64,000 bases of DNA, taken from positions 19,424,974 through 19,488,973 of the forward strand of contig NC_089724.1 of assembly GCF_035083965.1 (NCBI RefSeq). The letters are read 5' to 3'. The notes under the pieces are model-generated. The model saw only the letters and a program-made list of their open reading frames with translations. It ran no database searches and was not told the origin of the DNA. The position numbers and the translations under genes were made by a program. The stretch is from Branchiostoma lanceolatum. Taxonomy: Eukaryota > Chordata > Leptocardii > Amphioxiformes > Branchiostomatidae. This document shows positions 3,824-41,552 of the stretch, in pieces. The first letter of the stretch is position 1. Every line of letters begins with the position of its first letter.

Positions 3824-4216
3824 ATGAAAGCTGATACCTCCGAATCTGGCATGGTTGGCCGGTTCGGCGATGCCCTACGGGCCCTGCCGCGCCTTTGTGC
3901 CGAGGCTATCCGCTCTCTGCTTGACGCGTGTTATCTACTCCATCAGTGCTTTATCTACGTGCCCCTTGTGACAATTTGGACATCAGATAGCGACTTGCGG
4001 GAGGCGGAGACGGACGGGTTTGTGACGCGGGACGACCGCACACCTGTCCCCGCCTCCCCGCCTCCCCTGGTGCGGACGGGCCCGCCACCGGGCCCACCCG
4101 GACATCCACAGAACCTAGAGTTGTCGACAACTCCACATCCCCAATCTCTAATTTATTACCTCCTGTTTTCTTTGATTTTGAGTTCGTGCTGTGAGCAAGA
4201 GTTCTTGGAAGGTTGA
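3824..4216 (+). CDS. Hypothetical GC-rich ORF, possible first exon
   Basis: A 130-codon open frame lies in an island clearly richer in G and C than its surroundings (about 3830-4110). The N-terminal part is Leu/Ala/Cys-rich and could form an amphipathic or membrane-associated helix (residues 10-52). A Pro-rich stretch follows at about residues 75-97, with PPPLVRTGPPPGPPGHP. No family is recognised. The opposite strand is also open (3951-4241), as is common in GC-rich DNA, so coding status is uncertain. It may be a first exon, a promoter-associated CpG-rich island or chance. No downstream exon could be joined to it. Confidence 0.25.
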   Translation: MKADTSESGMVGRFGDALRALPRLCAEAIRSLLDACYLLHQCFIYVPLVTIWTSDSDLREAETDGFVTRDDRTPVPASPPPLVRTGPPPGPPGHPQNLELSTTPHPQSLIYYLLFSLILSSCCEQEFLEG

Positions 4217-12080: not shown

Positions 12081-13977
12081 ATGGTGTTGCACGCCGGTGC
12101 TGACGCAGGTCTGGCCGTGCAGAAACGTCCGAACGTCCGTTCGTCTGTCAGGGACTCGGTGGTCGACCTCATCGCCCGTGGGGTGTGCAATCGTACCCAC
12201 CACAGTGTCAAACACGGCCGCTCCCGCCCAGAGGACAGGCCGAGGGACAGGCTGCCGTCCTTCCGTCCTACCATGAAGGGTCTAGAACAAAGTTTGACCA
12301 CCATGTCTTTACCTCGGCGTACTCCGGCCACTCTTCACCAACTCTCCCCCTCCACGCTCCTGCTCGGCAGCTCCACCCTCCCCATGCCGGCCATGGCTAA
12401 CCTGTGGACACGCGAAGAAAGCAGTCAGAAACTCCCCGTCATTCATGAAAGACTAAGAACTCCTTCGAGGAACCAAAGGTCTCGTTCCATACCCTTCCTG
12501 CCTCCTCCCACGAAAGAACAAACCTCTCCAAGGTAACATTAAGAATGTCTTCTTTATCAGTTGATATCCCTGGTTTTATTGTGTGTAAATTGAGATGAGA
12601 TTCGTCTGCAAATCTAGTTTGCATTACTTGATACACATTTGGGAGTTTTTTCTTCTGATCGATAGATAAATCAAAGTTGTCTGAGGTTTAGGAAAGTTTC
12701 ACACCAAAACTTCACATCGTGATATTCATTTGCACATGGTAGCATATGCACAAGATATATTCTAATTCTATCTCTAACATTCTAGCTTCATCTTTATCAA
12801 GGAAGTAAAAATTATTCTTTACTATAAAAGTATCATTGGGACATTTTTCAATATTTCCCTAAAACACACTTACTCAATCTATACATTGGCCTCCAGGTTG
12901 TTCTCCGGAGAAAGTATCGAAACTGTTGTGATTAACCTCAAACAGATACTTCAATCCTCTGCCTGCATGGATACTTAATTGTAATATTATTACACATGTA
13001 TTGATTTCCAGACGGTCCTACAGCGAGGACCTCGGCAGAATGATCCCCATCAAGCCTAGTACGGCAGAAATCATGTTTCCGGAAAAGATGTCGGAAGCCC
13101 TGACGCCGGATTCCGGAAGAAAATCCACCATCTTGAAGCCAGGCGGTCAGGTCCAGAGACCGGTTACAACAAACGTGGACAAGTCTGCGGAGAAGAGGGT
13201 TCACTTTCAGATCACTCTTCCCAGAGAAAAAGAGGTAAATGTCCTCAGATATATATACATTTTATTGTGCGGACATTCCATCATGATATCAGCTGGCATT
13301 TTAATGATCATTCCTGTCTGACAATAGGTTGTAAAATATCTGTAGGCTATAACTAAAGACCATGATGGCAAATGTGTGCGCTTTTGCCCGAAGTAGCAAC
13401 AAGTTTTTATGTCCTATATAAATACGATGAAACAACGATGAAATAGAATTAAGATGTCAGTGTCAGATTAGGCTGTCACTGCCTTTTAAGTTTCATGGTC
13501 GACAGTTGCATACTTTTCTCACACTCATCAACTTCTATCTAGGTCACATTCAGGGTGCCAACGCGGAAAGGCAGTGGTTCGTCGCGGGGCGTGAGCGAAA
13601 TCAGTCCCGAGAACAACTCCACGGTCACGCCGGTCTTCAAGGTCATGGTCACCACTAAGAGCAACGTCGAAGCAAAGCCGTCCACAGGGGACAACGAAAA
13701 GGCCAAAATCGTAGCTTCTCCAGCCGAGGCGTTGTGCCGGACCTTTATAGACACTCACAAACTCGGTGCGCCGTCTACACCTAAGCTAAGGACCTCTTCT
13801 CTGACAGTGGATCATTTCAGTGCTATAGACTCTTATGCAGGACACGTCAACTACTGCGACCACAAGAAGACAGACCAGATTGTGAAATGGCTCGAGGACG
13901 TGAACGAACAACAAAACATAGACGCCAAAGTCAGAAGAAGCCAGTCGTCCACTTCGTCCGAGAAGATCAGTGTATGA
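12081..13977 (+). CDS. Gene A: putative PP1-docking protein, 369 aa, three exons
   Basis: Exons 12081-12532, 13012-13234 and 13543-13977 join in phase (phases 2 and 0) with GT-AG introns. The ATG has an in-frame TAA 24 nt upstream. The protein is largely low-complexity and rich in Arg, Ser, Pro and Thr, with no folded domain recognised. Residues 190-193 read TILK and residues 213-216 read RVHF. A SILK-like motif followed by RVxF is the known docking arrangement for the PP1 catalytic subunit. A second similar hydrophobic run, VTFRV, follows at the exon 2/3 junction. Near the C terminus, KKTDQIVKWLEDV (W341) resembles gene B (EKTDMICRWLERC) and gene C (KRRCRQWLAEV). PP1 binding is inferred from motifs only. 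The family name is unknown to me. Confidence 0.85.
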
Positions 13978-14039
13978 TGAACGATTCTATATCATGTAGC
14001 GATGAAGGAATGCTCTACCTCGAGGTGTGTGTAGCTGGG

Positions 14040-14045
14040 AATAAA
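14040..14045 (+). terminator. Candidate poly(A) signal of gene A (AATAAA)
   Basis: A canonical AATAAA begins 63 nt after the TGA of gene A. It is the first such hexamer downstream and implies a short 3' untranslated region. Confidence 0.5.
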
Positions 14046-16179
14046 ACTGTTCATCATAATTACATTAAGTCGCTGTGACAAGCCAGGATTCTGATGGCCG
14101 TACGCGTATGATAATGATAGACGTTTTCGAGAAAACGCGTACGAGCCAGACAATCAAAGAAAAAGGTCAATATTTTCAAACAAACCAAAATCCTTTCTGG
14201 TTTGTCACTCAGGGTTGTGTATTGGGGGGTGTCACAAATGTTCTCATTTGAGTTCATGCTACTTTTTTCATTCAGTTGTAGAGGACAAAAACACCCTCTG
14301 TGACTGTAATCTACATCTAGTGATTAGACACTGAACAAGACATTTAGAGAGTTGACATTGTCAAACCTTAATTGGCAAAGGAAGCATTGAAGGGTTAGAT
14401 AGATTAAAGCACGATCACAAATGAGTTTGCTGTACCCATTAAGACACTCCTGCTACGACACTCTGCTTATCAATATTTGTTTGAGATAACCGTGTGCTAT
14501 TAGGTTAATCCCTCACTGCTATTTCATCATGATACCTTGGTCCAAATTGTTTTCGTCACAAGCACTTGTACAGCTGTTGAACTGGATTTGGATATCTTCG
14601 TTGCATTTGTTCACAGATGTCAAGGATTTATCAACTTTCATGATTTTATGTTTTATGTTAAAAGACACGTTTTGTTATTCTGGTTCATAGTTTCATTTCT
14701 CAGATAAGGTTTTGTGATTATGTTTTCACCGATTTGTTTGGATTCATTTTCTTTCTGTAACAATATTTTGTTTCTGTATATTTTGTTCCTGTATAGATTT
14801 TGCCCTACAAAAATTCAGAATGTTATGCTGTTATGAGTCATATCAATCTAGATAGTACGGTCATTCGTTTCAAAGTTCGCTTTCAAATGTCGCCATCACT
14901 GAGGACAAATTGGAAAATGATCGTGTCAGCATGGGAGCAGATTGCGGCCTCAAACAGTTGTGTGTCACCTTTGGTGTTACCTTAATCATACAACTGCTCA
15001 AGGTTTCACGACAATCGCAATCAACCGTGCTTACTGTGCAAATAAACAATATTTCTGTGGCAATCAAATTGGTGTAGTGTTTCGTAAATAATGCCTCGTA
15101 CCAACGAAAACAAAAATGTTCTATTTGTAGACGGGTATGCCCTGTAGTTAGATCTGGATGTAGATACGCCAAGTGAGCTATGATCTTTCCTTCCATGAAA
15201 GTACATTCTACTCCGTTACGTTGAACGTGTGGGGTTTTATCTCGTAACGTTTTGTGTTATACTACTTTAAGGTGCATGTTTCCACGGATGGGAAAACAGG
15301 TGCTTTTATCCAGTTGTATAGTATGTTCTGGCTGAATGAATCAGCAAGAGTAGTTGTTCGTAGCGTTCAGTTTGAATAGAACACTGCAAGGGTTGGATAT
15401 ACAAGGTAACAAAGCGGGCAGGAGCGGAGTTAAGCCAAGGTTTTGTTACCTGGAGGACGGGTGCTATTATGTTCTGTTTGCTTTGGTGAAAGGGTCGCGG
15501 TGTCACGTTTAAGTTTCTTTCTCTCTCCGTTTTCAAGGTACATGCCGTAACGCATTCAAACCACTTCTAAAGGCCACAAAAAGGCTCAGAGACTCGTGTT
15601 TCAAAAACGGTAAATCATTGCACTTCTATTCTGATTGGCAGTCATTCAGGTGTAGTTGCCCCATAGCGGTTAATACCTGTTGCTAAGTGACCAAGTTTCT
15701 CGGTCGTTTGACGTTGCACATGCACTTGCGAATACTGACCTTGACAATTAAGATTTTCGCCAAGAACAAGGCCATCCTTTTCATACCTACCAGGGCTTAT
15801 CCTAGTCTGGTGAAGACAGCTAGGAAATAGAAATATTTCTCGATTATTTAATAAAAGTTTATCTCTTTGGAGATAATCATCTCTCTTAAATCAGCCTTGG
15901 ACAATGCCTTAAACAAACCTTTCATTTTTTTGTTCATTTATTGAAATAAAGTCAGCCCATGTGGAGACAAAACTTGTGGCTGTAATTATATAAATAATTG
16001 CACAGAGATTGCCTTCCCTTTCAGGCTTTTCGAATATACATAAATGATCAGATCATATTTGCGTTTAATTCCGACCTTTATAGCCACAGAAACTGTACTG
16101 TTCAATAGATTCTAGTCCCTGTTACATTAGTCTATAGCTAGATGCCTGTACTCTCAGCACAATCATGATGAGAGTAACT

Positions 16180-16336
16180 GAGGAAGCGAAGGAAAGAGAG
16201 TGGGGGAGAAGAAATGAGAAACTTTGAAGAAGAAAGAAGGGAAAACTTGAAGAATGATTGGACGTGACGAAAGGAAAAAAGAAGGAAGAAAGGCAAAAAG
16301 GACGAAGGAAAAAAGGAGAAGAAAAGAAATTTTTTC
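16180..16336. repeat. Polypurine tract (GA/AAG-rich), about 155 bp
   Basis: The plus strand is almost entirely A and G from about 16180 to 16330, ending in GAAAAGAAATTTTTTCTCTTG. There is no fixed unit length. Such tracts can adopt triplex or H-DNA structures and expand by slippage. The pyrimidine-strand ORF at 16138-16347 is a by-product of this composition. Confidence 0.75.
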
Positions 16337-18840
16337 TCTTGAGCCAAATTCAGTGATGCGCCTTGATCAGAGCAGTGTAAATCTAAATACCTAACAAAGC
16401 TTGATGGCCTTCACATAGCTATAGTCGTGGCGGGGAGGGGGTCTACGTGCGGCTGTGCAGTATCGTGTCTCTGTCTTAAGGAGGTATTTCTCCAAGGTTG
16501 AAGCTAAGGTTACTTGTGTGTAAATTTGCAGAGTATTAAACCAAGATAGCAAGCGAGCAGTCACGTGACGGGGTTATTGCAAGACCCAACACGCGTGAAT
16601 AGCTTACTGTTCTAGCTTATCTCGCCAGACGGCGCTCATGTTTCTTGTTTAGTCTCCTGAGACGACTTAAGATTCTTAAGTTAAGAGTTTCATGATTTTC
16701 ATCTAACGTAACTTCGATGTGTCACATTCTGTTGATCTGACTTCCAGAACCACCCAGCGTCCTAAGAACAGAGACCTGGGGAGTGATGTTGTAAACAGAG
16801 TGAAGTTGGACATCAATAACCTATCAGTGACGTTACATGAAAGCGGGCGGAACAACACGAACCCTGCTGTTGTAATGTGCGCATGACCCAAAACCCACCA
16901 TTGTGAAGCCCTTTGTTCGCGGGAACACTGAACTTGAAACAGAATAGCATGTTTTGATCACAATTTATACACACATTTGAAAATGCACTGAATGTGTATG
17001 AAAATGTTGTTATGTTATCTACAAGCTGGGTCAGGCTATGATTTTAAAGAAAACATCCATGCTAGCATGCTACATGGTGCGTGTACGTGTGTGTGAGTTT
17101 CTTCGAATTCGTTACTTCACAGAGAAAGAAACGGCCGTTTTTCAGACATATTCTCTTGTTTTATTCATCATAAGTCTGCTCTAACATTCGAGATCGGCAA
17201 GCAGTCACTGCAACTTTTCGTATAAGCAGTTACTTGTTGTAAAGTGCCTTTTGAGATGATAAGAAAACATGCACAACTTAATTATTTTGAGACATGTGAT
17301 CCTTTGGACGAGTACTTGTCACAAAACTCGATTAAAGATCCCAAGCCGAGATGTATTGCTAAACAGTTACAGAGATATAATCTTTCCCAACTTCAAGAGG
17401 TCTCTACGTGACGATACTGTATCTTATTCTTTTGTTCGCGGGGTGACAGTGGTCCATTCTTCTGAAATACCAGCCCCGTTACTCAATACCTCTGACCCGC
17501 CGTCACATATCGTACTATCACGCGGTGGCCACGTGAAAACCTAGTTGTGTTAGGTTAGGTTATACTTAAAGTTATATAATTCTAAACATCCTTTAATCAC
17601 CTACGAGTTCATAAAAGCAGATGGTAATTTGGACAGGTAGTTTCGTTACCCCCTGTGTATACGGAAAGTGGGGTTTGACCACCTGTGTGGTTGAAAAGAA
17701 ACTCGTCTGACGGTCACTAGGGGTAAGAACTAGTCACCCATGCAGAGGAGACGTAATGCCGCGTAACGCAGACTATTGACTCCCAGACCCGTGACAGAGG
17801 CGTTGTAATCACTGTTTGGTAAACTGGTAGGGAGAGAAGATTATAAAGGAGTGTGTGGATAAGTGAGTCCAATTATCGGTCACTGCCGAAAGGTTCTGTT
17901 GTGGCTTGCAGATAAGACAGTTGTTCACAGGGGAAGTAGTGTCCGCAAGACCCACCTCTATCTGGATTGAATAAACAGAAGAAATTGGCCAGAATAGGAT
18001 GGATGATTATAAAACACAGTCACTACAACTTGTACAAAGATATATTTTCTTCAAACATCAGCTTTACTTTTGAACCTTTCAGTGTAAAAAAAAAAGAAGA
18101 CAGCATTGTTGTGGGGATATTCACTTCGTCAGTATTCGTACCTCAATCAATATCTAGTTTTGTTTTGTTAACATTTATGTATAGATTTGCACTTTGTTAC
18201 ATCAGACAATGTCGCGGGTCTGACATATCAGATTCTGCCATTAGGTTGTTATGGATTTTATTGATACTTTTTTGATGCTCTGACACAGCTGTGTCCGCCT
18301 TTATAAACACTTAACATGTGATATAAGCAAGATGAGCCTGCGAGGAAAAGAAAACTGGCACCGACTGGTACCTTTCTCTAAGAATAGCCATCCTTAAACC
18401 GCCTACTTTACCTGGAGGATTCCTTAGATAGAGCGTAAGAAGCGCACATAATCCAGCCGAGACATAGGATAAGCCCTCAGATGATATGTGAAAGCGTGGA
18501 GACGATTTCAGATAATCCTTGGATGAATCTTCTCTAATACCAAGCTCAACGGCTGTCCATCCAATGAAATGATCTTAAATGTTGTTAAAGCATATCCTAC
18601 ATGCAAAGGAATGGAAACCCCTGCACTTAGGTCTTTTTGTACAGTAAAGCTTTGATCACACCTTTTGTGTACGTGAGATGGTCGGTGGCGATGTCAACCC
18701 AAACAATTCAAATTAAACATACGAAGTTAAGATTTAGACTCGTTTCAAGGTTTGCAACTGCGTGGCAAATGACCAAAGATCTTGAGTTGAAAAATAAAGA
18801 TTTGCCCGAGGAGAAAACTTTCAGTGACCCTAGACATTTA

Positions 18841-18854
18841 GTTGTCACGGCAAC
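18841..18854. promoter_or_regulatory. X-box-like palindrome GTTGTCACGGCAAC
   Basis: This 14-mer has the half-site layout of an RFX-factor X-box (GTTGYC, two bases, RGCAAC). A second half-site, GGTTGTCAC, follows at about 18861. No gene begins nearby, so this is a sequence match only. Confidence 0.25.
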
Positions 18855-21447
18855 GACCCCGGTTGTCACAATGGGAGTTGTCAATGGCGCGTCAAACGAC
18901 ACCTGCCACGCGAGACGACAGCGCGAGCCCGGCAGACGTCAGCGAGGACAGCGCGCTGTAAACAACTTATCAGAAACTTCCGAGTTTTCTCTGGTATTCT
19001 TCAGAGCAACGCACAAATTCGGCTGACTGCGAAATATGAGAGAATCGGGTGACTTCTAGGAAGACAAGAAAGGTCGACAACGATGAAACTTCGACGGAGT
19101 ATACATGGGACGGAGGGAGGAGTACTGTTGCAAGGTGGGTGAGCGACACCATGTTCGATATGCTTGTAGGTAAACACAAACGTCCGCCCTTGGTAAGAAC
19201 AAAAGATGGGCGATAGCTATTTTCCAAACAAGTCTTCGGTGTTCATTAACCCTTACTTCAGGTTTTGTCTGTTGTTAGAGGTCTTCTTCACCAGTTTCAC
19301 CACCGGAAAGTCCACATGAACGGTGTACACAAGGAAATTCCGCTGACACCTGTCACGGCCAAACAAAGGCGCTCGTGTGCCCAGGTCAAGGTGTGAAAAC
19401 ATACCGACAAAGTTTATATAAGCAATCGATTATCCTGAATAGGAGAAAGTTGCCGACTTTAGTGGGCTCAATGTCAAGAGCCAAATACTCGCTGTCTTCT
19501 AATACATGATATCTTTGTTATGGAAGGAAAGCTAAGATAAATCCTACATGAAATTGTCTGCGAGTCTCCAAGGTAAATTATTGATTAAGTTTCCTCCCTA
19601 GAGACCAATAAAAAAAGCCGATTTGTCAGTTGTCGCCTATAGAAGATGCTCACTTTTGTCGGACATACAATTGTCTTATGTTGGATGCTTACTGACCTTG
19701 TTGTGCCTGTCAAGTGTTGTTACAACATGGCGCCCATTTTTGACATATCTTCCAAACAAATCTTCACGAGATAAACAGTGACAGAATTATCAACCAGTCA
19801 TAAAAAGGTAGGTTGAATTATTGATAGGGTGTTGGCAGCAACGTTTTATGTGACATATAGTTTCCTAGTCTTTCTTGCGTGATTGCCGATACAAGACAGA
19901 TAACCCTTTTAGTTTTACTTGAAGTTAAGATTAAAGGGTTCCCGTTCACGAATTACTATGATCTAGGCTATACATAAAGCGCAAGTCGTAGCTAAGTCAA
20001 GCAGTGCACTACTGCAGCCAAAGCAGTGACGCTGTCAAGCATTACGCTTCGAATTTGACCTGATTTACCTTTACCTGCGAGTGTAAAGTACACCCAATCA
20101 TCCACAGATAAAAGCATCAACCCATAGGTATGTTGGAATACTAGCGCAATGTACATGCATGTAGTCAAGACACTAAAAACAGAAATATTTTGCCTGTCAC
20201 TCGTAAGATATGTATGGAGGTATAATTGTATACAAGAACGTGACAGACATACGCGGGATGCGTTTGAGTCAAGGTTTGTGACGAAACATACTACCTTGGG
20301 TGCCAATAGTGCCGCGGGCCTTAGTCACTACGGCAACCGACTTAAGAAACACACCGCCTGAAACGGCGCATGTACAAAATACCATACTTGTTTTTGAGCA
20401 ATTTAACATTTCAGAGACGACTGACCTTTTTGTTCAAGCCTCCATGACAAACAACACGCTTGGTCCGTTTTCTTCATATGAAGGTTTCTGTCTTGTTGTT
20501 GGTAACGAATGTCTCCTGTAAACACTGCTCGGGAAATGTCGGTATGAACTTTAAAGATAAACACGACTTCCCAGTGAGAATGTTGTGAACTCCTAACCCC
20601 ACCGCATAGCTTTTATTTCTCACGTGGATCCCCAGAGCCGTTTTGCATAGACCATTCAAATGAAAGAAATTTACCCCTTCTCTGTAACCTGTTCTTCTCA
20701 CAAATTGGAGACCATAATTACTCTCTAATCAATCATGCGTATTACTATTATATCGTGGGAACGAAGGACGTCGTTTTCTCCTTGTATCTGCACTACATTT
20801 GTTTCGTCTGTCTTTAGTTTATTAGTTCAGTGGTTTGTTCGCAAGTGTAGTCCAGCTAGGAACTTCTACAAGTACAACACTCTGCCATTCAGAACTCGTC
20901 TTCCCTCTATGTGTACATCTAAATTAAAGCTTTAAAGGTACATATTTGTATTTTAGACAGCCTCACAAAATACCTAGCACTCTATTGCCTTTCAATAACT
21001 AAATCATTTCTCAGGGGAAGAAGTAAAACTGATTGTCATCAAACGATTTCATGCTGTCATGTGTTGATTTTACGCAATATGAAATTGACTGGGATACAGT
21101 GACTGGATGGAGCAGGCATACATCGTAGCAAGTGATTCACAGAGAGCACATTGGGTACTCTTATTGTTCCACTTTGCTTACGGCAGCCGGGTGTACGTGT
21201 TGTCCTTGTAACGTTATGCTTCCTTCATGAAAGACACAGTTTTTCTATAATGAATAGTAAGGCCTTTCACGCCTTTATTCTAGCTTTGTTTACCATAAAA
21301 CCGACGACATGTCCTATATTGATGAGCAGGCAGCGAAGAGACTCCATGGTTTCATTTTTCACCATCTCTTTGATATGCGCAAAGTTGATATGCTGGCTGA
21401 TGTGTAGTTAATGGTTATGCGTTATGGATTTAGGAAATGTACAGAGT

Positions 21448-21608
21448 CAGCGAAATAGTGAACACCTCTCAGAGAGCATTAAGAGTTTCTAACAGTTTGG
21501 AAAATAAAAGATATTTTAGTGTCTGTAGTACAGACACTAAAATATCTTTTATTTTCCAAACTGTTAGAAACTCTTGATGCTCTCTGAGAGGTGTTCACTA
21601 TTTCGCTG
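21448..21608. repeat. Near-perfect inverted repeat, 80-nt arms, 1-nt spacer
   Basis: The left arm (21448-21527) and right arm (21529-21608) are reverse complements except for one T/G position, near GCATTAAG against CTTGATGC. That position would be a G:U wobble in RNA. The centre is GTCTGTA-G-TACAGAC. No target-site duplication is evident just outside the arms. Transcribed from either strand it would give one long hairpin, like hpRNA or endo-siRNA precursors. Alternatives are a very young foldback element or a cruciform-forming inverted duplication. Confidence 0.95.
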
Positions 21609-22659
21609 TTTCAATATTGATCAACTGACGACCGTAATTACAATATTTGTCTGGAAGCGTCGGAAACGTATAACTTTTTTTAGCTTGACACGGCGACTGT
21701 GCCGCCTGTCTTTCACGACTCTACCCTTGAAGTTGTGAAACATTACTTTTCCTATATCGATGATTTCTTTTTTTCACTTGAACATTGCAAGGATTTATAG
21801 TTATCAAAGTCACCAGAACAATTGTTAAAGCAAGTTATGATTTGCATCAGGGGAGAAAGAGATAAGGCAGTCTTACCAGCATGCATGCCATTCTCGCTTA
21901 AGAATCCATAACGAAGTCTTTTGGAAAGAAATACAATACGACAGAAACAAAAATAAAGAAAAACAAGAGTCCGTAGGACACAATTCTCCGTGAAGTATTT
22001 ATAGTATGTACAAGTATTGACCCACACAAATTGCATCTCTGCACACTGTCCACGTAGTGTTTTAGAGCAAGTAAAGAAAACGTGTTTGTTTATCTTTTTC
22101 GTTCAATACAGGAGTGGTCAACCTGCTGAAAAGTATGTTTTTACAGCATGGCACAGATGGGATCTAGAAATCCCGGGAAAAGTCACAAAGTTAAATCTAG
22201 ATGGCCCCTTTTCAATTATTAACGAACCATTCTTATTCAGCCTTACAACTAAGATGTATCAGAAATCACAAATATGCAGTAAATCCTCTTTCCACAATTT
22301 ATTGCAGGCCGGCCTGATCTATAGCTTTCAAGCTATTTGCAATAAAAAAGGCTAATTTATATTATCGTAACATTTCACGAAGGTCAAAGGTCACCGGATC
22401 TAACCACCCGGAAGTGACACTGGCGCGCGCACTTTTCTGAGAGATATTTCTCAACAATCTTTCATCCCCTGCGTAAACTTTTTACATTGTCACAGCCGCC
22501 GTATTATAAACTACAAGTGTGGTAAGTTTGAAGGTCCAGAGATTTCCCATTTTCACACTGTGCGTAAAAGTGCATCGTCCGTCCCGTGCGCACATACTGT
22601 ATGCGAGTTGCGAGTGGACACGGCATACTTAATACACAGACTGAAGCTCACTCGGCACA

Positions 22660-23037
22660 TGTTCGCAGCGAAAACTCACAATTCCCGTTGCCGCATTGGT
22701 ATGTAACTTGGTATATCGCTAGCTAGGTTGCTTGTGGTGATGCACGTTGTCTATTTTTCAATGTAACAGTGACTATACGATCACAGCAAGTAAGGAAGAT
22801 TTATACCCCGTATCTGCCTGAAATATTCCAGTCATGCATAACGGATTATAACATGGTCCCTATGGCAGGGCAGTGGGACATAGCATTAATTATAGGGGTG
22901 CAATTACGATATTGGATTGACGTTTAAAGTAGTTATGGTGTAACAAAGCTATTGTGCATCACCACGCCGAACCAGGCAAACGATATGCCAAGTTACACAC
23001 CAATGCGACAACGGGATCGTGAGTTATAGCTGCGAAC
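22660..23037. mobile_element. Foldback element with about 85-bp inverted repeats
   Basis: The left arm (about 22662-22746: GTTCGCAGC, CGCATTGGT, GTAACTTGG, TGGTGATGCAC) is inverted at the right (about 22953-23036: GTGCATCACCA, CCAAGTTAC, ACCAATGCG, GCTGCGAAC). Arms match at most positions with scattered substitutions, so the copy is older than the hairpin at 21.5 kb. The roughly 200-bp interior has no ORF. Confidence 0.8.
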
Positions 23038-26000
23038 GCGCAATCAAATGCATTCCCAATACTCCCAGAAGGAGGTCATCCTCCTTCCCGGAGTAATAAC
23101 CTCCCCCTATCAACATTTCTCGAATTTGACGTTTGAACACACGGCTATAGTTGATTCACATTCGGCTGTGCTATAGGATAGTTTCCCTGTCGTTAGATTG
23201 CGCTGCAGGTCGTTTGCGGACGATTCTTTTGTGTCCATCCCTGAAGTGATAGATGAGAAGGTCGCAGCCCCTGTTGTCTATGGCGTTGTTCAAACCAGCC
23301 TGTTTATGTTGTAACGTCCTACCCGGGCCTGAAGCAATTGTACGACCTATATTTAGCCCACCACGCCTTTTACTCTTCTTTTTTTGTGGACACCTATAGT
23401 ATAGTATAGATCTTCGTCTCTTTGCTTAAGTTAAGACTTTGACAAACGTTCTTGTGGGCATCCGCGATGTGAGTGTGCGTGTTTGCTAGTTTCTGGAAAG
23501 TTCTGGAAATAAACCTTGGAGATGGTATTGGGTCAACCCAGTTTTAGGCGGAGCGGTTTATCTTGTAAACGAACCGGAGTTCTCGGATTGCCGTGTCTTA
23601 CATCTGTGTCGGTGATGCGGAGAGTGAGAGAATGGGTAGGTGGGTGGCTTACATAAGGTCCCCATCTCCCCCACGGAGAGATATTCCCACAGTTGGACGG
23701 TCTAGTAGTGCGTCAGAAGAGCACGGAATAACCTCGGGGCTCAGTCAACAACACAGGGGATCGGAAAGAGAAGCCGAATGCCGAGCGAAAACGACTTAGA
23801 CTGTGAGCTTTCAGACTCAGGTTCGTACATATCGTGATATATGATGATGCACCCAGGCGTGTCGGTTCGCAAGAAACTGCTTCCGCACTAGGTAACGTCT
23901 GCGACAAAGTTTTGAGAAGTCACGTACGTCACGAGTAACTTTTCCATGATATTAACACACTTCTTGAATGCGTATACTGTCAATTTGGCGTCTCACCTAT
24001 AATATCGTATAAGAGTAGGCGTATTATAAATGTCATGTGGAGATACCCTTGGCGTGGTCTGTGTGTGACTGGCATCGCTTTCCTGTATTCAGAGAATTCG
24101 TCATACATGCACAGCTGCAAACTGAACTATCGCACGTTTCTTCTCCTACTGTCCGAGTGTATATGTAGTGCTGCTCTCAGTGTAGACAAAAATATATGTT
24201 GGAGGAAAAATCACGAACGGTTTTCAATTTGCACTTAAGTTTGTGCACCTATTGCAGGTACTGTCTTTCGGACATGGATATGGATATGGATGTGCATGGA
24301 TGCCATCTTTACAGTATCTTTACTGCACCTTCCTTGGAGAGCTTCTTGGTATCGTCATGAGTACGAGTCTACAACTTGTCTTTGTGTCCGAACACCGGTT
24401 GACTCCAACATGCTAGAGCCACTGTAGGCCAGTATATCTGATGTAACTGCGGTCGCCGACCCGTACAAAGGGGCGGGTCTGGAAGGATCACAGTCTGTCG
24501 TTATATTGCTTTATAATTCCTACATGTCTTTTCCTCAGTTTCATCCCTCTCAACGACTAGATTCACTTTAGTGAGTGTTTATTTCACACTATATGTGTAA
24601 TTCGTATACTTCCATTTTCATAGCATCTACCCTCTGGCCCTGATGAATTGACTCTCCTTGGCTTGCCCCTGGCTCGTCAGTGATGTACATTAACGTTATA
24701 TAAGCGACTTGTTTAAAGCCCTGGTATATCAGAGGTCCCGTACATAAGAGCCGAAAATGTCAGGTCCTTTTCATTTCCGTCCTTACTTCCTGTAAAATCG
24801 GTACCCATTACCGGGCCATGTTTCCGAGTAATAGTCAAGCGGGTCTAGTGTAAACTAAGGTCACATCAGAAAATAGCTTTCTTACGGTTTACATAAATCG
24901 CTAACTAGTTAGAAATACGTGATATGACCTAAAAACCTTTATACGTCGTTTACAATTTCACTAAAATCGCAAATATTACGGCGTACGTCATGTTCTGCTG
25001 AATTCTGACGTCAAGCGAGCTAGCAATGACATTTGGCGCACTTACGTTGCCATGGTAGTAGACGACAGGGGATCAAATAAATTGCTGCCCAGGCCCCGCT
25101 CTGATCACATCAGCTGTGCGTGTGTGGATGTGGGTGTGTAGTTTGTGCCTTACCGACTCTCCACAGCGGTAGATGTACAAGGTAAATTGTTAAGCATTTT
25201 GGTTGCAACTCCCTAATGATTTACATGTATCTCTGAGATGTATCATATTTCCAAACAGGTCGTTTCGAAGGCACACGTTACACAGTAACAGTATTGACCA
25301 GCTTAGGTTGTTTCAGTACAGATATTGAATATTGTATGTACTGTTTAGTATCATTGTTTAGTGTTTGTGCGCGAGCCATTCAGATCATTTTTTATTCTAT
25401 CTAATTATTTTATCTTATTTTACTAAAAGTATGATGTATCGACTGCTAGCATTTGAGTAGTATTTCGCATGTACAATGTACGAATTGTGGCGATACTATT
25501 ATGGTTTACCCTGGATACCAGTACGTAATCTAGCTAAAATATACATGAAACGACGTGATATTCCCATGGCGATGGATATACAACTCACCAACCTTCTCTG
25601 ACCACTCAGAGTACATGGTTCTTGAGATAGATATCCCATCATTCTTGTTATCTATACGTTATTGACACATACACTGGACAGAACAATTACATATTCAATA
25701 TTGACTCAGCGAATGACGCCCGCATCCAATCGATATGAACCAAGGAAGATAAGCTTGTACGTTGGTGAATTTAAGATGTCAAGAATCAAACATTAAGACA
25801 TTTCCAAAAGGGCGTTGGTGTGTCAATATTATTCCCTTTAAGTTCTCTTAACCCCTTTCAGGTCAGATTTACCCAAACTCCGTCTGCACGAAGCTCATTA
25901 ATCAGCACTTAGCAGTAAAACACGCCTGACCTTTGTTCGGAGCAGGTATTTGATCTTAGTTGTTGAACTTTGTGCCGCGAGATGAGCCCAGTCACGGTGG

Positions 26001-27082
26001 GTACTTTGTTTACACGGAAACCACATATGCATAAATTAACGTGGTGAGACTGCCCCTGTTCAGTAACGGGGCTGACTGGTGGCGAGGGCTCTGGTAATTC
26101 TGTTTCTCCTGTCGGTGGTTCAAAGTTATACCAGGTATGTAAGCTGCCATCCTGCTAGTTGGAAGTAGTCCTACTGAATTCTGAGGAAAATCAAGCCAAA
26201 TCGTTTTGAACAATGTCAAACACTTGAGCGGTAAACAACAACATGGCCAAGGGCTACACATCATAAGCTGGTGTGTTGGCGTTGGATATATATTTCGGAG
26301 TCACGAAAAGGCACGATTCATGTGCAAAACGACCATCATAACCTTATACGTTTACGATTATTGTAAACCTCATGATCAACTGAACATATTCATGCTAATT
26401 CCGTTTTGAATACCTGGGACTGAGACTGTATATTTGTTCCAGCACTTTTGATGCGAGTTTAGTGAACATGCTATTTTATGACATTATTTCTGTTGGTCTG
26501 CAAGCCTTTGACTTTGTTTATCTGATCATCATTGTTGGTCAAAGATCTACTGTAGTAGTGTCCAAATTCCAAAAATGTAACAACTAGTCAGCCCAATATA
26601 CTTACAGTCATATTCTTATGAGTATTGTCAAATAGAGACCGTGCCTGTTCAGTGTAGTATATTTCCGTCAGTTTTAGAAGTATCCTTTACATTCAATTCT
26701 GTATCAGGACTTTGGCTGGCTGACCCCGCTTCTTTTGCAGACTTTGTTACAAGTTGTTCCTTCCCAATTTTTGCATCCGGGAGTTATGTAACATCAGAGA
26801 ACACAAGGGGAAGTCCCGCATTTCTTGGGGGGAAATTTCCTCATAGGTCTGCTGTTGTAATACCGAACCCGTAGGCGTTATTTTCAGCTGCCATATCAGG
26901 GGGATTTTATGGGGGGAGCGGAACAACGTTGCTACTAGTATTTGTTTCCAGGTAATTAGAACTTTTTACGGAGGAAAGGGAAACTATGTTGCTATTCCTT
27001 TTCTGGTTAAGAGTTTTTCGATCGTTGCTTTATTTTCTGATACTTTTCTTTAGCATTTTCATCTCATTATCCACATTTTATC

Positions 27083-27545
27083 ATGGTTGCCATTCATCAC
27101 TGTTATTGCTCGTCTTTTAGTCTCGTAGTTTACCAGTGTGCCAAAGAATTTGTAAATACTGTACGTCCAAGGCGGTGGAAGACGAGACACATTTTATTTC
27201 CAAGTGTATATATAACAGTGACGAAAGAACCGAATTATTTAAACAAGTTATCACGAAATATCCCTACTTTTGCACATTCACGGATGAACAAAAAGCTACC
27301 TTTCTCTTGAAATCACAGAACCCACAGATACTAGAAAAAGTGGGACTTTTCGTCTTCCACTGCTTCCAACAAAGAAGTCAAACACAGCTAATTTAGATAT
27401 AGCCAACAATTGTATATAGTAGCAGTAACCTATTGTTACAGCAAAGTCAGACACAGTTTACTGACGCATGTATGTTTTTCCTATGTTTTTATCATGTATT
27501 TGCAATTAGCCCACGGGCATGAACTTGCAATAAACTTCTTTATAT
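27083..27545 (+). mobile_element. 5'-truncated LINE: C-terminal tail of a reverse-transcriptase ORF plus 3' end
   Basis: Codons from about 27136 to 27396 read RICKYCTSKAVEDETHFISK and continue with CIYNSDERTELF. This is the Cys/His zinc-binding tail typical of the C terminus of non-LTR retrotransposon polymerases (CX2C, ETHF, C, then an R-x2-LF segment). The ORF closes at 27396. A 3' tail ends in TTGCAATAAACTTC near 27525-27538. No polymerase core lies upstream, so the copy is 5'-truncated and inactive. The clade (CR1/L2-like) is a guess. Confidence 0.7.
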
Positions 27546-27645
27546 CGTGCATAATTTTCTTACTCTGTTAGACGTGGGCAGATGCAAGAAATTCACTTTT
27601 ACTACTGTACCGCACGTAGAACTAGCCCTTGATGCTGTCTTCAGG

Positions 27646-27778
27646 TAATCTCCAAGCAGATGTGGAGGGAGGCTAAATCGTTACGTTTTCCTATTTGCCA
27701 TTTCTGTGCTAAATTGCCTCCTGAATTGGACAAGAATAGACTTAGCCCGGAAAACGCCCCAAAACGCTTGGAGATTTG
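27646..27778. mobile_element. Short MITE-like element with AATCTCCAAGC ends
   Basis: AATCTCCAAGC near 27648 is inverted as GCTTGGAGATT near 27767. The longer word TAATCTCCAAGCAGAT also occurs alone at about 1151-1166, suggesting a dispersed family. No ORF is present. Confidence 0.55.
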
Positions 27779-28709
27779 TCTTCAGTCTGACATTTCTGCC
27801 TAGAAAGTTCTGCTGTTTTGTCTGCTTCTGTACCTATATTCGCTTGACACCATCATCAGTTAGGGGGTAAAGATATGACTAATTCACAACGTGCAAAAAT
27901 AATTTCTGTTACCGGGCGGCTCGTACAGCAATAGAATATTGATCGACGGTAACTGCCGGCAGCTCAGGCAGGAAAGTCGGAAACTTCTATATCGATTTCG
28001 TGTAGAGGTTGTGGGACAAAACCATACGGTCGTAAGATTACATTTAAGTCATCTCACGTCAGCAAAAGCAGAATGGCCTCTCGGTAAGTGTTCTGACATT
28101 TATACAGTTATGTAAACTTGAAGGTCAACGCCCGCTCGACTAGACTTTGGCCTTCAGGTGTGTTTCACGCAGTCAGCACGTTTTGGACGCGTGCAGACGG
28201 CAATTTGTGAGAAAAGAATGACCTAAATAACTGACAAAGCATCCTTAATGAAGATGGGAAGGTTACCCCTACCGACGATAGAGTTACAAAGTATAATGAA
28301 GAACGTAATCACGTCCAACACACGATACAAAGGACCAGCTGTGAGCTAGCTTGTTCCAGACAAATATGATAATATTTCAGACAAATTTAATTAGCTAGTG
28401 GTATTGTTCCGACGTCCTTGGCATTGTGTTTATGGCAAAAACCTTCGAACAATCACGATTTTCTAATGCTGACTGGGAGAATTTTGACAGCTTACTATGG
28501 TTCTCACTCTCCCGGTGAACATAGTGGGTTGTTTGCAAATGCACATCACCAAAAGACAGTTGTACCCGTAATCTGTATGATAGTATGATGTACTAGTGGA
28601 TCTATCTATGATATGATAGTATTCTTAAGCAATTCTGTCATGATACGTTTGAATTGTACTTCCAGTGGCGTTTCTCTACATGTGGACTAGCTAGTTTGTT
28701 GGGTCAACT

Positions 28710-29246
28710 ATGATTTATGCTTGGTTGTCCCTGGATCCGTTTGGTATTCTAATGTTGTTTTGTCGGCTTATGGTTTCCCGCAGAATTTTTTTTAATCTCT
28801 GGGTGACTAAGCCACACTGCGAGTTCGGTGACAGTCAACCGTATTTGTTATCTCTTCTAATTCTGTACTCGGATATCATGATGTTAACAAAATCTACGAG
28901 AATTATTGTGTGTGCTGTGTGGAACGTTATGTCATTTATTAACTCCATAGGCCTGATTACGACAGATAACATCGTTTGCATGTTAAAAGATCTCTGTGGG
29001 CAGGTGGAATTTCACAGCAGATCCATATTATCTGCTTTCGGCTTACAACAATATTACATACCTTGCCCTGGAAGTAGTTTTCGTTTACGATACGGTGAGA
29101 AGATTTTAGCCGGTGATTTAAACCGTTTAGCGATATCACGTTGCAACGAGACTATGAGTTCATATGCACGTGTCAATCTTCTGATAGGTTTGAAACATTT
29201 ATCTAAAGCAAGGACATTATATAGGCAAGGACCTTGTTTAAAGTAA
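28710..29246 (+). CDS. Hypothetical 178-aa ORF just upstream of gene B
   Basis: This is one of the longest unexplained open frames in the window. It is hydrophobic and Cys/Leu/Ile-rich with no recognised domain. Its TAA (29244-29246) is followed 13 nt later by a strong donor (GTAAGT from 29260). Splicing there to the acceptor at 29363 would place this frame in register with gene B, so the two are separated only by this one in-frame stop. It may be an upstream ORF in a 5' exon, a remnant of longer coding sequence, or chance. Confidence 0.2.
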   Translation: MIYAWLSLDPFGILMLFCRLMVSRRIFFNLWVTKPHCEFGDSQPYLLSLLILYSDIMMLTKSTRIIVCAVWNVMSFINSIGLITTDNIVCMLKDLCGQVEFHSRSILSAFGLQQYYIPCPGSSFRLRYGEKILAGDLNRLAISRCNETMSSYARVNLLIGLKHLSKARTLYRQGPCLK

Positions 29247-29363
29247 TCAATATCGTTTGGTAAGTTTCATGACCAGTTAGATATCAAACAGCATCACACA
29301 ACTATATACATATGGTGTGAAATGGCTCAAATCTAATCTCGTTTATTCTTTTTCTTTCCCCAG

Positions 29364-30775
29364 ATCTCCGCATAGGTTCACGGGGAAAAGCTGACCTCCC
29401 GAAATCCAAAACTCCGGTCCGCCACTGTACTTACAAACCGCCAAAGTGGGGCTTCCGAGCGGAATCCCCTGCAGCTGCATCCCAATCTCGCCAGGTGGTG
29501 TCCCAGCCTGAAGAGGACAAACTGTTCATGATGGCGTACGGCACGCAGGTGAAGATGCACATCTTTCACGGCGAGGGAGGCCGCAGCACGAGCAGCTCCA
29601 TCCTGAGGTCTATCAACCAGACCCCGCGGCTCGGCGAGAAGAAGGTCCGCTTCGCTGAAATCACCAACTCCCTGGACAGAGTCCAGACCAGAATCGGCCG
29701 TCCCACCACCAGAGGAAATAATTTCTTTCGCGCCGACGAAGTCTGGGGGCTGGAGGAGAACAATAACGATTTAAGTAAGGAAGGCGGACTTCTTCCTAAC
29801 ATTGAAAACTCGTCCGACTCGAAAGACAATTTGGACTTTGGGCTGCAGAACTCCAGAAATCTGTTCGGGATGAAGAATGGAGAGTTCGAGGAGAGCCCCC
29901 CGAGTTCACGCAACCACGGCATGTGGCACAACGCGCCGCCCCCGACCCCACAGAGCTCGCGTATGACGTATGATCTGAAGCTGGCGCGTGCGCAGAAGGA
30001 AACAAGGACGAGGGAAGGCTTTCCAGGTGTGCTGATCTCACAGACACACAGACCTCACCTGGTAACGAAGGACAGGTCCTACGTCATGGACAGGTGCGGA
30101 AAACCTTCGAGAGCCTTATATAATACGTCTCTCGGTCTCTCTTTTTCTAACATCAAATACCACATTGGCTGTATGGTACTGGCCATTTGCTTTTCCTGGA
30201 CTTTTTTTCATTATGAAATGATTCACATATAATGCAATAAGAGGAAGAATAATGATAATGACGATCTCCCATACTCTCTGTTAGTCGCATTGAAGCGACA
30301 CCAGCCACTAGTCAATTGAGTGTACAGAGGATAGAGGCTCCCGACCTAATGCTAATCCTGTGATGTTTTATTTCTTTACAGGTGGGCTGAGAAGCAAGGC
30401 CTGACGCCAGCAGTGCAGAAAGCACCCGTGGTGTACGGCAAGGGTCGACAGGTCCGTATAGGCGCGCCCTCTATGGAACACGAGATGGTACTGCAGGAAT
30501 TAGATGGTGGCGGCACTCACGATCATATTGAAAGCGGAGTCGACGTCGGCAACTCTCGGGAGGTGACCGGTGCCCCTAGGGATAACCCAGATCAACCGGC
30601 GACCAAGAACTTGTACTCCGTGTTCGGGGATCACGATGTGGAAAAAACGGACATGATTTGCCGCTGGTTAGAACGGTGTACGTACCTGGACGGCGAGGAG
30701 AAGGAGGAGGACGAGCAGGGAGTCACGACGGACATTATCGTCCTCCCGTCCATCCTTCAGGACAGGACTTCGTAG
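29364..30775 (+). CDS. Gene B: putative PP1-docking protein, 5' end unresolved
   Basis: Exons 29364-30093 and 30382-30775 (phase-2 intron) give 373 codons of open frame to a TAG stop. The first in-frame ATG is at 29528, giving 319 aa. Sequence before it (LRIGSRGKADLPK, CTYKPPKWGF) looks coding, so an unidentified upstream exon may supply the start. Counting from that ATG, residues 24-27 read SILR and residues 38-42 KKVRF. This is a textbook SILK then RVxF pair for docking to the PP1 catalytic subunit. Acidic and Pro-rich linkers follow. Near the end, EKTDMICRWLERC matches the gene A C-terminal motif. The last 30 residues are acidic, then hydrophobic (DIIVLPSIL). No named family is recognised. 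Same strand and similar length as A and C suggest dispersed paralogues. Confidence 0.75.
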
Positions 30776-34776: not shown

Positions 34777-35917
34777 ATACCTTCGCCGAATGATTTTAAC
34801 CTTTATGACTGACGTATTTCTGTGTTTCTCATCAATTATAAATCATACCAGTTGATTGTCTTAAAATTTGTCCAAAGTATGAGCTTAACAAATTATAAGC
34901 TTAACAAAGAATGTTATGCTAATATTTATCATCAATTATGCAAAGGACGCCCTTATTAGCATAATTTGATTCAACGATGTTCACATTCACATAACTCCCT
35001 GATGCCACAAAAAAAGTATTAGATGTATGAAATTGCCGTCATTTGCCAGTGTGGAATAATGGAAGTTACTTATTAAGTATGCAAATTAGGCCAACATTTG
35101 CATATTTTCTATCTATTAACAGTCCTCTCTTCCTCAGTTACAATTTGAATAGTCATATCATGGAGCAAAGCGGATTTTTAAAGTTGCCTCATTAATTATG
35201 CAAATTAGAATCTAATTTGCATGATTATTGTCAAATCATACTAAACATCACACAAGCTATCCACATACCAAAAATCATGACCATCCATCAAGACCATCTT
35301 TTTATAGTATTTTCTCATTAATTATGCAAATAACGTCATCATTTGCATAGTTCATATCAATCAATATTTCTGTCTTCCTCAGTTACATATGTCACATGTT
35401 TCAGAGTCCTATCATGGAATTTGGCGGCTGTATAAACTTTCCTCATTAATTATGCAAATTAGATACTGATTTGCATAAGAAGTATCTAATCATGTACATC
35501 ATCACTCAAGCTATCTACCTACCAAAAATCATTACCATCCATCAAGCCCTTCTTGAGTTATTCCCTTTCAAAGTCAGACGCAAAACCTGCTCCTGCAGTT
35601 CCAAAAAAGCCGCTAGGGCGCCCAAACCCACACCACTTACTCTCTGTCCAAAAATCTATCTACCACTCAAAAATAAGTTCCATAGCATGTCCAGAACACG
35701 AGATATCAAAACAGGAAGTTCCGCTGCAGTACCGTAAGAAGCCGCTAGGGGGCCCAAAATCTAATCGTTTTTAGGTCTCATCAAAACCTACCAACATACC
35801 AAATACCAGGACAATCCATCAAGGCATTCTCGAGTTATGCTGTGCCACTACACACAAACACACACACACACCCACCCACAAACGCTACCCTCTGCATAAC
35901 CTTCTCGGCGAAGGTAA
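34777..35917. mobile_element. Inverted-repeat-bounded element of about 1.1 kb, non-autonomous
   Basis: ACCTTCGCCGA at 34779-34789 is inverted as TCGGCGAAGGT at 35905-35915. Between them lie the periodic array at 34938-35476, a duplicated GCCGCTAGGG word (about 35610 and 35741) and a short CA-rich run (about 35843-35880). No transposase ORF is present. Diverged internal repeats repeatedly carry phrases like CATACCAAAAATCATGACC and CCATCCATCAAG. The short 11-bp ends make the boundaries provisional. Confidence 0.65.
34938..35476. repeat. Periodic array of paired ATGCAAAT / ATTTGCAT words
   Basis: Convergent octamers occur at 35079/35096, 35198/35215, 35324/35341 and 35452/35469. A degenerate pair (ATGCAAAG/ATTAGCAT) lies at 34938/34955. 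The offset inside every pair is exactly 17 bp. Pairs recur every 119-141 bp, embedded in units beginning CTCATTAATTATGCAAAT. This is a diverged tandem repeat whose best-preserved part is a palindromic core. ATGCAAAT is also the POU-factor octamer; binding is not implied by sequence alone. Confidence 0.85.
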
Positions 35918-38431
35918 TTACAGACTGGGAAATGTAATGTTATATTCAGTGTTATAAACTTGCAAACGTGTTATCTGCCCCACCTTTACTGTATTATAAA
36001 GTATTATAAAGCTGATAATGCTGTGCTTAGTTTATCATTATGAATCTGTACGTCGTATTTGTTGGGCACAAATGAATCAGTAATTCAGGGAACGTTTTTT
36101 GTTTTGCTCTCCACTGAACGTCGGCGCATTTTATTGTGTTACGTTTCCCCGATAGTTGTTGATACAGTACTTGTGTCATCCGCGTATGGGAAGGTGTCCT
36201 TCGACTATTTTAGACATATACGGAAAATTTGCATACTGGTATAGCCATATTTCTGTTGTACCAGTGGCCATTTGGACTGTCTCCTGTAGATTTATGCACC
36301 ATGTTGCAACATGGATTTATTTTGATAAGGGTTGGTCCAGAAATCGTTATTTGGGAGGTAATTTTGTACATCATTGATGAGTTCACATCTTCAGGTTATC
36401 CCTTAATGTCTTTGACCCTGGACATCGTTTGCCGTATAACTTTGTCTTCAAAGGGACTGAAACTTTTACTTCCGTTTTTTCGCCAAGGTCACGGTCTTTT
36501 CCTTCACTTAAGCGCGGTTTCAATATCATTTTCTAAGACAGCTGTTTTTGAGACGTGTAACCTTAGACAAGGGAGTTTACCGGCTGGAAACTTTGAAGGG
36601 TCGGGTGCTCATGAACATGTTGAGGAAGGAAATATAGAAGGGAATGAAATCTGTAAAACATACATTCCATGAATACCTCTGTTGTGGACACAGCTAATCG
36701 ATTTATGACAAGGATGAAGATATCGTAAAACTCGTTAATGACTAAAGACGTATTGATGGCTAAAGGACACTTGACAACTCACTTCTTTTGAAGTCCAACT
36801 TCAGGCCAGGTGCTGGAATTGCGGGATTCACCCCTGTCACGATCGTAGCCTTGGCCTTAAGAAGGCAACCTACCTTAATCTTGTCCTGGAAACCTGTAAG
36901 GACAAGCTTAATGTCCTTAATGTCGCAAGAATGGATATGTATATGTGCGCCCCCTCCCTAAGTACACACCTCGGCAGTTGTTGCTAAGCGAGTCGTTTCT
37001 AAGACCGTGCAGGACGTCCTTATAGACACTCAGTGTTCAGCAGCTAACGACCCAGTTTTGTTAGCGCCATTCGAAGGTTTCCAAGCGTGTAAGGACCCCT
37101 TGTGGAAGGACTGTTGTTCGGCTTTGTTCGGAACCTTTCGTGTCGCGGGGATAACCTGCATGTAAGTTACGTTGGCTTGTACATGGACATGGAGTATTCT
37201 CATTCAGATGCAAGAATCTAGTCGATCCTTTTAGTGTTAGTTTGTTTTTTGCCTTAGTATAATGTGTTATATCTACAACAGTATTAGTAGATATTGTGTG
37301 GACATCTTGCTCAATGAGGTACAAGGTGACCCTGACCTGTGTTCTATCGGCATTCCCTCCTAGGACGTCTACCGGTTTGTCCCTAATTATTTTCGTCATG
37401 CATCATACCAGAAAGGATTGCAGCTTGGACCATGTTAGCTCGAAAACTCAGTGTTAGATATGAAAACATTTCCACGCGCCATGCGCTCAACAATTTCGGA
37501 CCTGTTCCATCCCTTCACCGCCGACATCACGACACGAGCTTGGGTCTGTACAGACGTCTAATGTTACATTCACTATATTTGTGCTTTTGTATTTCAGGCA
37601 CGTTCAAGCGACCTTGAAATCATTTCTTTGCAGATGGATTAAGCGCGAGGTTGTGAGCGATTGTTGGTGTTGTACAGGGGGAGGGACAGTACGGTGCCGG
37701 GCATGATTCCATTGTTTACACCTGAGATAAACAGCGCATACTTGGTGCGATCATGAAATGGACGGAGTTTATCTGTGGTTTTTGTGAGACAGTAGTGTGT
37801 TGTCACTCAAGAGTTGTGGTTTCTAAACTACGGGAAGGACAACTGTGACTTTGACGATGTCTAACCTTTCCCGGAATATTGATTGGCGTCAACCACAACC
37901 CTCACATTCAATGCTAAGACGTGTATGAAACGTACAACGAAATGATGTACTTTGGCCTCATTAAATGCCTTGTATGTATCGATAAACCGGGAGTAAATAC
38001 CAACATCATACATCACCTGTACATGTAATTTACATTTCATACAAGACAGGACACCACTCTTAAGATGAATAGATCGTATTCTTTCTAACGGTTTTGTTTT
38101 TGTTTTTACAGGACTATTTAACGGGAAGAACTACCCAGGTGACGCTTTATTGAACATCAGATTCTTCACTGAAGCGGCACCACAGTGATTACGATCCATA
38201 TTCTGGGGATGATTCTGTCGTAATTCGTGAATAGCAGACACAAACAAGACCGTCTGAGCTGTTTTGATGTTTTTAGAAGTGTTCTTTGGCCTGTCAAGTT
38301 CAGCTGTTTATGTTCACTTTTACTTCAAGGCTGTGTGTCGTCACAAATATCTTACCTATCCGAATGCCGACTGTTTTGACAACGTTGTGAGAGAGGGATC
38401 CCGATGTTTTGGTGAACCTAACACAGCCAGC
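35918..38431. other. Non-coding stretch upstream of gene C
   Basis: A 147-codon ORF (36229-36672) is open but has no recognised domain and random-looking composition. A good acceptor (TTTTTACAG at about 38103-38111) lies about 320 bp before the gene C ATG, so a 5' untranslated intron is likely. Nothing else was identified. Confidence 0.45.
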
Positions 38432-39529
38432 ATGGCTGTGGAGTCTCAGACCGCGCCAGGCCCCAGTTTGTTTGGTCGTCTGTTTGGGAAGGGGATAAGC
38501 GCTACCCAAGCGGAAAGTTTGTCTGGGAGAGAGCCCGGACACGAGCACCCCGCCCAAAAGGGGCCCAAACTTTCCTTCCTCAGAAGATGTAGATCAGAAA
38601 CGGAACAGTCACTCTCACCAAAAATAGATTCGATAAATAGTCGGAAAGATTCATTGAAAAGTAAGAAAAGTCTGTCGTGGCCTGCTTTAAATGTAAGAGA
38701 GGACGCCAAGACGCCTTCAGCCATCTCTCAGACTCACAGAAGACATGGAGAGAAGGAGGGAAGGATTTCTCATCGGGTTACGGGCAAAGTCAACCAAGGA
38801 CCTCATGGATCGAGGACATTTTATGCACCACCAAACGAGACCAGTAGGAACTGCACTAGTAAGTCTCAACTGTACACACCTTCCCGTTTGTGTGAGGTAC
38901 CCGTGCAATACTACCGAGACCTTCAGCGTGGTATGCCGCCCGGACTCTACATGAGGCCCCCGAAGCCGCCCTCTTGGCACGGTTCTAGCTTGGAAAACGA
39001 CAGCGAGAGTACGAGAGCTACCAGTCCTACGGAAAGCACATCCGGACAAACGCATAAACACAACGACATAGACCTACATGGCACTAAAGGGAAACTGACA
39101 CACGGCCAGGGGAGCAGAAGTAGATTAGAACAAAGTGCCGGAAAGCCAAGGCTAGAGTTGGGGGCTAGACCGAAAACGTCCGCGGACCCTGTCAGAAAAT
39201 TCCCCCCGCAACACAGACTGGTACACCGCGCTCGGATCCGGCGCACGCGCAGTGAGTTCCTGAACGAGACTGAGCTTCCCGATGGAGAATTCACCGTCAG
39301 TTTGTCCGAGCTGGAACCCTCTGACTTCCGACCACAGATCACTGCGCATGCTCAACAGGACGTGCGGGTGTACTGGGACGAGAATAAGCGGCGCTGTCGG
39401 CAGTGGCTGGCGGAGGTCAGTGCGCAGGCGTCAGTGTTAGAGGACGTACAGGAGGTGGATGTAGAGGAGGACGGAGATGAGAACTGGTCACTTCCTCCGA
39501 TATCCTCCTCGTCGTCTACATCGTCTTGA
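38432..39529 (+). CDS. Gene C: single-exon protein, 365 aa, related to genes A and B at its C terminus
   Basis: The frame is open from 38264, but the ATG at 38432 has strong context (A at -3, G at +4) and begins MAVESQTAPGPSLFGRLFG, more protein-like than the sequence before it. The protein is Ser/Arg/Pro-rich and mostly disordered: basic-Ser segments near residues 45-85, a Tyr/Pro patch with MRPPKPPSW near residue 180, a basic patch (HRARIRRTRSEFL) near residue 275, and an acidic, Ser-rich tail. KRRCRQWLAEV lies about 40 residues before the stop, aligning with WLEDV of gene A and WLERC of gene B. No SILK/RVxF pair was found. Function and family are unknown. Lack of introns could mean intron loss or retrocopy origin. 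Confidence 0.8.
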   Translation: MAVESQTAPGPSLFGRLFGKGISATQAESLSGREPGHEHPAQKGPKLSFLRRCRSETEQSLSPKIDSINSRKDSLKSKKSLSWPALNVREDAKTPSAISQTHRRHGEKEGRISHRVTGKVNQGPHGSRTFYAPPNETSRNCTSKSQLYTPSRLCEVPVQYYRDLQRGMPPGLYMRPPKPPSWHGSSLENDSESTRATSPTESTSGQTHKHNDIDLHGTKGKLTHGQGSRSRLEQSAGKPRLELGARPKTSADPVRKFPPQHRLVHRARIRRTRSEFLNETELPDGEFTVSLSELEPSDFRPQITAHAQQDVRVYWDENKRRCRQWLAEVSAQASVLEDVQEVDVEEDGDENWSLPPISSSSSTSS

Positions 39530-41498: not shown

Positions 41499-41506
41499 TA
41501 TAAAAA
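41499..41506 (+). promoter_or_regulatory. TATA box of CENP-B-like gene 1
   Basis: TATAAAAA lies 54 bp before the ATG. The matching TATAAAG stands 58 bp before the ATG in the second copy. Between TATA and ATG both copies share CCAGTCCTGTATTCGACACG, so transcription likely starts there with a 5' leader of a few tens of bases. Confidence 0.65.
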
Positions 41507-41552
41507 TATTTTGATCTGACTTCCAGTCCTGTATTCGACACGACACGACACG

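Follow-up and report, generated by a model that had tools for sequence, protein, structure and literature searches.

The window, meaning the whole 64,000-nucleotide stretch of Branchiostoma lanceolatum DNA that was analysed, holds two plus-strand genes, A and B, whose predicted products each carry a SILK-like site ahead of an RVxF site. Gene A was resolved into three exons. Exon 1 (12081..12532) starts at an ATG, with its donor GT and frame read directly, and belongs to a stop-to-stop frame starting at 12060, which places a stop just upstream of that ATG. Exon 2 (13012..13234) lies between an AG acceptor and a GT donor and is entered in phase 2 and left in phase 0. Exon 3 (13543..13977) opens within a loose RVxF match, KEVTF, contains the C-terminal WLE motif and runs to the stop; an AATAAA follows at 14040. 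Joined through GT-AG junctions, the three exons (codon score P 0.0037, 0.0083 and 0.0043) give a frame of 369 aa with no inner stops. Upstream, a plus-strand ORF at 3794-4126 has a raised codon score (21.7) and is a possible further exon.

For gene B, a partial model was obtained. An internal exon (29364..30093, phase 1 in and phase 2 out, codon score P 0.0007) holds both docking motifs, and the last exon (30382..30775, P 0.004) holds the WLE motif and ends at the stop; joined in frame they encode 373 aa, the first exon excluded. A first exon is expected upstream, since the acceptor lies behind a polypyrimidine tract and is entered in phase 1. In a codon-score scan, no convincing candidate for it was found upstream among the 40 best segments listed: the only plus-strand segment between A and B in that list, besides those of B itself, is 23569-23778, which we rejected at an unconvincing score of 12.3. 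Neither AATAAA nor ATTAAA occurs within 525 bases past the gene B stop. When codon scores were recomputed leaving each exon out in turn, all five exons of A and B exceeded stretches drawn at random from the window, with P from 0.0007 to 0.008. Between the two genes, 161 bases at 21448-21608 are 98% identical to their own reverse complement, a near-perfect palindrome resembling a foldback element.

Downstream of A and B on the same strand lies gene C (frame 38258-39529, ATG at 38432, coding 38432-39526), which has a strong codon score and encodes 365 aa of disordered composition with no Pfam match. Its C-terminal segment DENKRRCRQWLAEV places a WLAEV stretch at a position similar to that of the A and B motif, and gene C was considered as a third member. 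We rejected it: compared over the last 80 residues, it did not exceed shuffles against A (p=0.20) nor against B (p=0.85), and it has neither a SILK-like site nor a strict RVxF, only a loose RVYW. The next best match in the window to the A and B WLE motif, at 51182 on the minus strand, was likewise set aside as a fourth copy, as it falls within a phosphodiesterase-family match and is unrelated; ENPP phosphodiesterase matches extend over about 50958-52250 of that strand, the best in the PDB being ENPP3 (E 5e-14). Elsewhere in the window, a tandem pair of about 240 bases (35066-35300 and 35311-35554) is 77% alike, and two plus-strand ORF copies at 41346-42532 and 48306-49466 (spanning 330 and 346 aa between stops, 93% and 85% alike across two blocks) carry CENP-B_N and Tc5 DNA-binding domains, with no transposase catalytic domain in Pfam scans. 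A minus-strand match to ribosomal protein S18 (E 1.7e-12) occurs at 57839-57967, presumably nearest to the mitochondrial MRPS18C. The ENPP and S18 matches, the Tc5/CENP-B ORFs and the introns together give the impression of an animal nuclear genome.

The docking motifs were defined by pattern. The strict RVxF pattern has five residues, [HKR][ACHKMNQRSTV]V[CHKNQRST][FW], and the canonical SILK pattern is [GS]IL[RK]; we also used a looser SILK-like pattern, [GST][IV]L[RK], which we widened so that TILK qualifies. In A, TILK (13127..13138, aa 190-193) fits the looser pattern only and lies upstream of KRVHF (13193..13207, aa 212-216), which matches the strict RVxF pattern; 19 residues separate TILK from RVHF (aa 213-216). 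In B, SILR (29597..29608, aa 78-81 of the partial protein) fits the canonical pattern and lies upstream of KKVRF (29639..29653, aa 92-96), also a strict match, with 11 residues between SILR and KVRF (aa 93-96). The preliminary description had reported both arrangements at distances of 20 and 12 residues, and they are indeed present; the difference from 19 and 11 is one of counting, from the first residue of the motif or up to the residue that follows. It had also placed E-K ahead of each RVxF, which is what the sequences AEKRVHF (A) and GEKKVRF (B) contain. To these sites we add the second, loose RVxF of A, KEVTF (aa 224-228), which is interrupted by intron 2 and was absent from the earlier account. 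A pattern scan for PhiPhi, MyPhoNE and Fxx[RK]x[RK] sites found none in A or B, which counts against PP1 docking. A six-residue form of the RVxF pattern, given in PMC4794898, matches neither protein, both having E at its first place.

A C-terminal WLE motif had likewise been reported in both proteins, and we recovered it as DHKKTDQIVKWLE in A and DVEKTDMICRWLE in B; the corresponding features are DHKKTDQIVKWLEDV at 13858..13902 and DVEKTDMICRWLERC at 30635..30679, both on the plus strand. The match amounts to one block of 13 residues, 8 of them identical, with the tryptophan 29 and 36 residues from the end. Over the last 80 residues, A and B matched better than shuffles (p=0.0008, 5000 shuffles), in a region picked after the motif had been seen. 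Over the whole proteins they did not (p=0.146, 2000 shuffles), and a comparison of B with gene C, which looks unrelated, did about as well (p=0.17); the BLASTP E values of 0.024 for A and B and 0.042 for B and C are also close, so that the pairwise evidence is weak. When A and B were aligned freely with MAFFT, the docking motifs fell out of register, the distance from RVxF to WLE being 128 residues in A and 245 in B, and intron phases differ as well (2 and 0 in A vs 1 and 2 in B). Common descent of A and B is thus possible but thin as judged from these comparisons, and the docking pair may have been acquired independently in the two genes. This bears on the argument, made in the preliminary description, that the same order in two diverged genes makes chance less likely. 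The order is indeed the same, but it counts as evidence only if A and B share descent or selection, and with descent reduced to one 13-residue match and the motifs unregistered, it carries less weight than was claimed.

Both proteins lean towards disorder in their composition. In A and in B, 98% of 21-residue windows lay above zero on the disorder scale, a measure of composition only, with a threshold of our choosing, and the mean hydropathy fell just below the charge-hydropathy line by a narrow margin (0.424 vs 0.434 in A; 0.404 vs 0.414 in B). The least disorder-like window of A is centred on aa 322, just upstream of the WLE motif; in B two windows tie for this minimum, one covering the WLE motif and the other at aa 63. 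Our best reading is that A and B are two candidate members of an already known class, the disordered PP1 regulators; that they are largely disordered adaptors binding the PP1 catalytic subunit we consider somewhat better than an even bet. PP1 docking, the central proposal of the preliminary description, stands as a well-supported prediction, made from the strict RVxF, the nearby SILK-like site, the disorder-like composition and the rarity of the pairing; its canonical form does not hold in A, where TILK is non-canonical.

Database searches bear on whether such proteins already have a name. Spliced A had no Pfam match, nor did its exon 1 taken singly, and spliced B matched no Pfam model at the cut-off, DUF7828 falling below it (E 0.15); the single exons gave sub-threshold matches only, to HSP9_HSP12 (E 0.19, A exon 2) and DUF7828 (E 0.078, B last exon). 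Pfam-A includes an IPP-2 model, and that profile was not among the matches of A or B at E up to 10. Searched against PDB sequences with E values up to 10 allowed, the docking segments matched nothing, although such a search has little power for short motifs. No relatives of B exon 2 were found in GTDB genomes or of A exon 3 in IMG/VR, which, as collections of prokaryotes and viruses, say little here, and Rfam gave no match. In the literature on SILK, RVxF and PP1, on amphioxus, and on metazoan lineage-specific and disordered proteins, no title on the A/B locus was among the matches listed. The Pfam results speak against A and B being orthologous to an animal family that already has a name, perhaps one known to interact with PP1, but no model in curated libraries. 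In its favour, many PP1 interactors have no Pfam model, and our searches covered Pfam, the PDB, and prokaryote and viral contigs. We regard this explanation, which overlaps with our best one, as a serious possibility that falls somewhat short of even.

Are the motifs nonetheless fortuitous? Disordered proteins could acquire RVxF- and SILK-like strings freely, in which case neither A nor B would bind PP1. The motifs are short, TILK departs from the canonical form, and shuffling yields the loose RVxF in 27% of cases for A and 31% for B; the failure of the docking motifs to align and the unremarkable whole-protein similarity given above point the same way. PMC4794898 puts the loose pattern in about 25% of all proteins. 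The pairing is another matter. We defined a pair as a SILK-like site within 60 aa upstream of a strict RVxF, the limit being our choice and the motif class having been selected after sequence inspection, which qualifies all the rarity figures that follow. In 200,000 residue shuffles of each protein, the frequency of a pair was 0.07% for A and 0.04% for B, falling to about 0.016% for each when [GS]IL[RK] was required. The six frames of the window contain 840 stop-to-stop ORFs with a minimum length of 40 aa (51,376 aa in all). A strict RVxF was present in 8 of them and a SILK-like site in 9, and the pair occurred in two, namely the exons of A and B, which have coding support, and in none of the other 838; the reverse order occurred in none, and the pair with [GS]IL[RK] in B only. 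Shuffling all 840 ORFs for 3000 rounds gave an expectation of 0.071 pairs, with at least two in 0.2% of rounds. Taken whole, the observation of SILK-RVxF pairs in A and B is unlikely to be chance, and we hold the fully fortuitous explanation to be less likely than not, at roughly one chance in four.

If A and B are indeed PP1 adaptors, the parts of each protein can be given tentative roles. KRVHF in A and KKVRF in B would be the main anchor, sitting in the RVxF groove of PP1, and TILK and SILR, 19 and 11 residues upstream, would add a further contact, one that is likely to be strong in B but weak in A. By analogy with Rif1 and Inhibitor-3, the RVxF would be essential in both proteins and SILR helpful in B, and TILK may contribute little in A. 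As in Rif1, the active site of PP1 would stay open with both contacts made, so that A and B would act as adaptors rather than blockers. The C-terminal D-x-x-K-T-D-x-I-x-x-W-L-E segment could fold into a short amphipathic helix to which a partner or a substrate would bind. The anchor should also escape the Aurora B switch, because position x of its RVxF is H or R and not S or T. A bolder version seems to us doubtful, namely that A and B make up a family of animal PP1 adaptors not described before, marked by a C-terminal KTDxIxxWLE helix along with SILK and RVxF, their anchors built against Aurora B. We consider it very unlikely that A and B are instead PP1 inhibitors covering the active site: the small Inhibitor-3 (PPP1R11) has a SILK-type site upstream of RVxF, and so does Inhibitor-2, but neither A nor B matched a Pfam inhibitor family, and the CCC run that forms the active-site motif of Inhibitor-3 is missing from A and from partial B.

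The adaptor reading matters because PP1 takes its specificity from partners, which share short motifs only and are hard to find. Two candidates on the same strand with a common C-terminal segment would make a small, testable set for the origin of new PP1 adaptors, and if PP1 binding is real, that segment hints at an unknown partner.

How A and B compare with known PP1 partners can be followed from the small proteins to the large ones. Inhibitor-2 (PPP1R2) is a small disordered protein with a SILK-type site ahead of an RVxF-type site, a layout that A and B, disorder-like in composition, have in common with it, whereas A and B lack an IPP-2 Pfam match. Inhibitor-3 has LTIK at 28-31 and KVEW at 40-43, 8 residues apart; losing this non-canonical SILK site left its affinity nearly unchanged, and NMR showed that the site contributes once RVxF is deleted (PMC10066265). 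It thus resembles A and B in having a SILK-like site a short way upstream of RVxF, and differs in the form of that site and in that its inhibition requires the CCC motif, which A and partial B do not have. In KNL1, SILK and RVSF are also neighbours, within aa 24-70, and both are inhibited by Aurora B (PMC6715587), which targets RV[S/T]F sites (PMC8786283); unlike A and B, whose RVxF has a non-phosphorylatable residue at x, KNL1 is a kinetochore protein with motifs under Aurora B control.

Rif1 offers a further parallel in layout. In the mouse protein, SILK (2128-2131) precedes RVSF (2150-2153) with 18 residues between them, compared with spacers of 19 (A) and 11 (B), and the docking region has no fixed fold, as predicted for A and B. 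Changing RVSF to RVSA reduced affinity to below 0.1%, changing SILK to SAAA cost about 20-fold, and binding left PP1 activity unblocked (PMC5437018). Position x is S in Rif1 and H or R in A and B, and Rif1 is very large and built with HEAT repeats, whereas A and B have some 370 aa each and no Pfam match at the cut-off. The preliminary description had treated SILK ahead of RVxF as the established arrangement; as a diagnostic, the order does not hold up, since Rif1 homologues, like other proteins, are reported to show both orders (PMC3410773), a source whose assignment of order to groups conflicts with the mouse Rif1 positions of PMC5437018. As for spacing, the 19 and 11 residues of A and B are close to those of proven cases, with 18 in Rif1 and 8 in Inhibitor-3.
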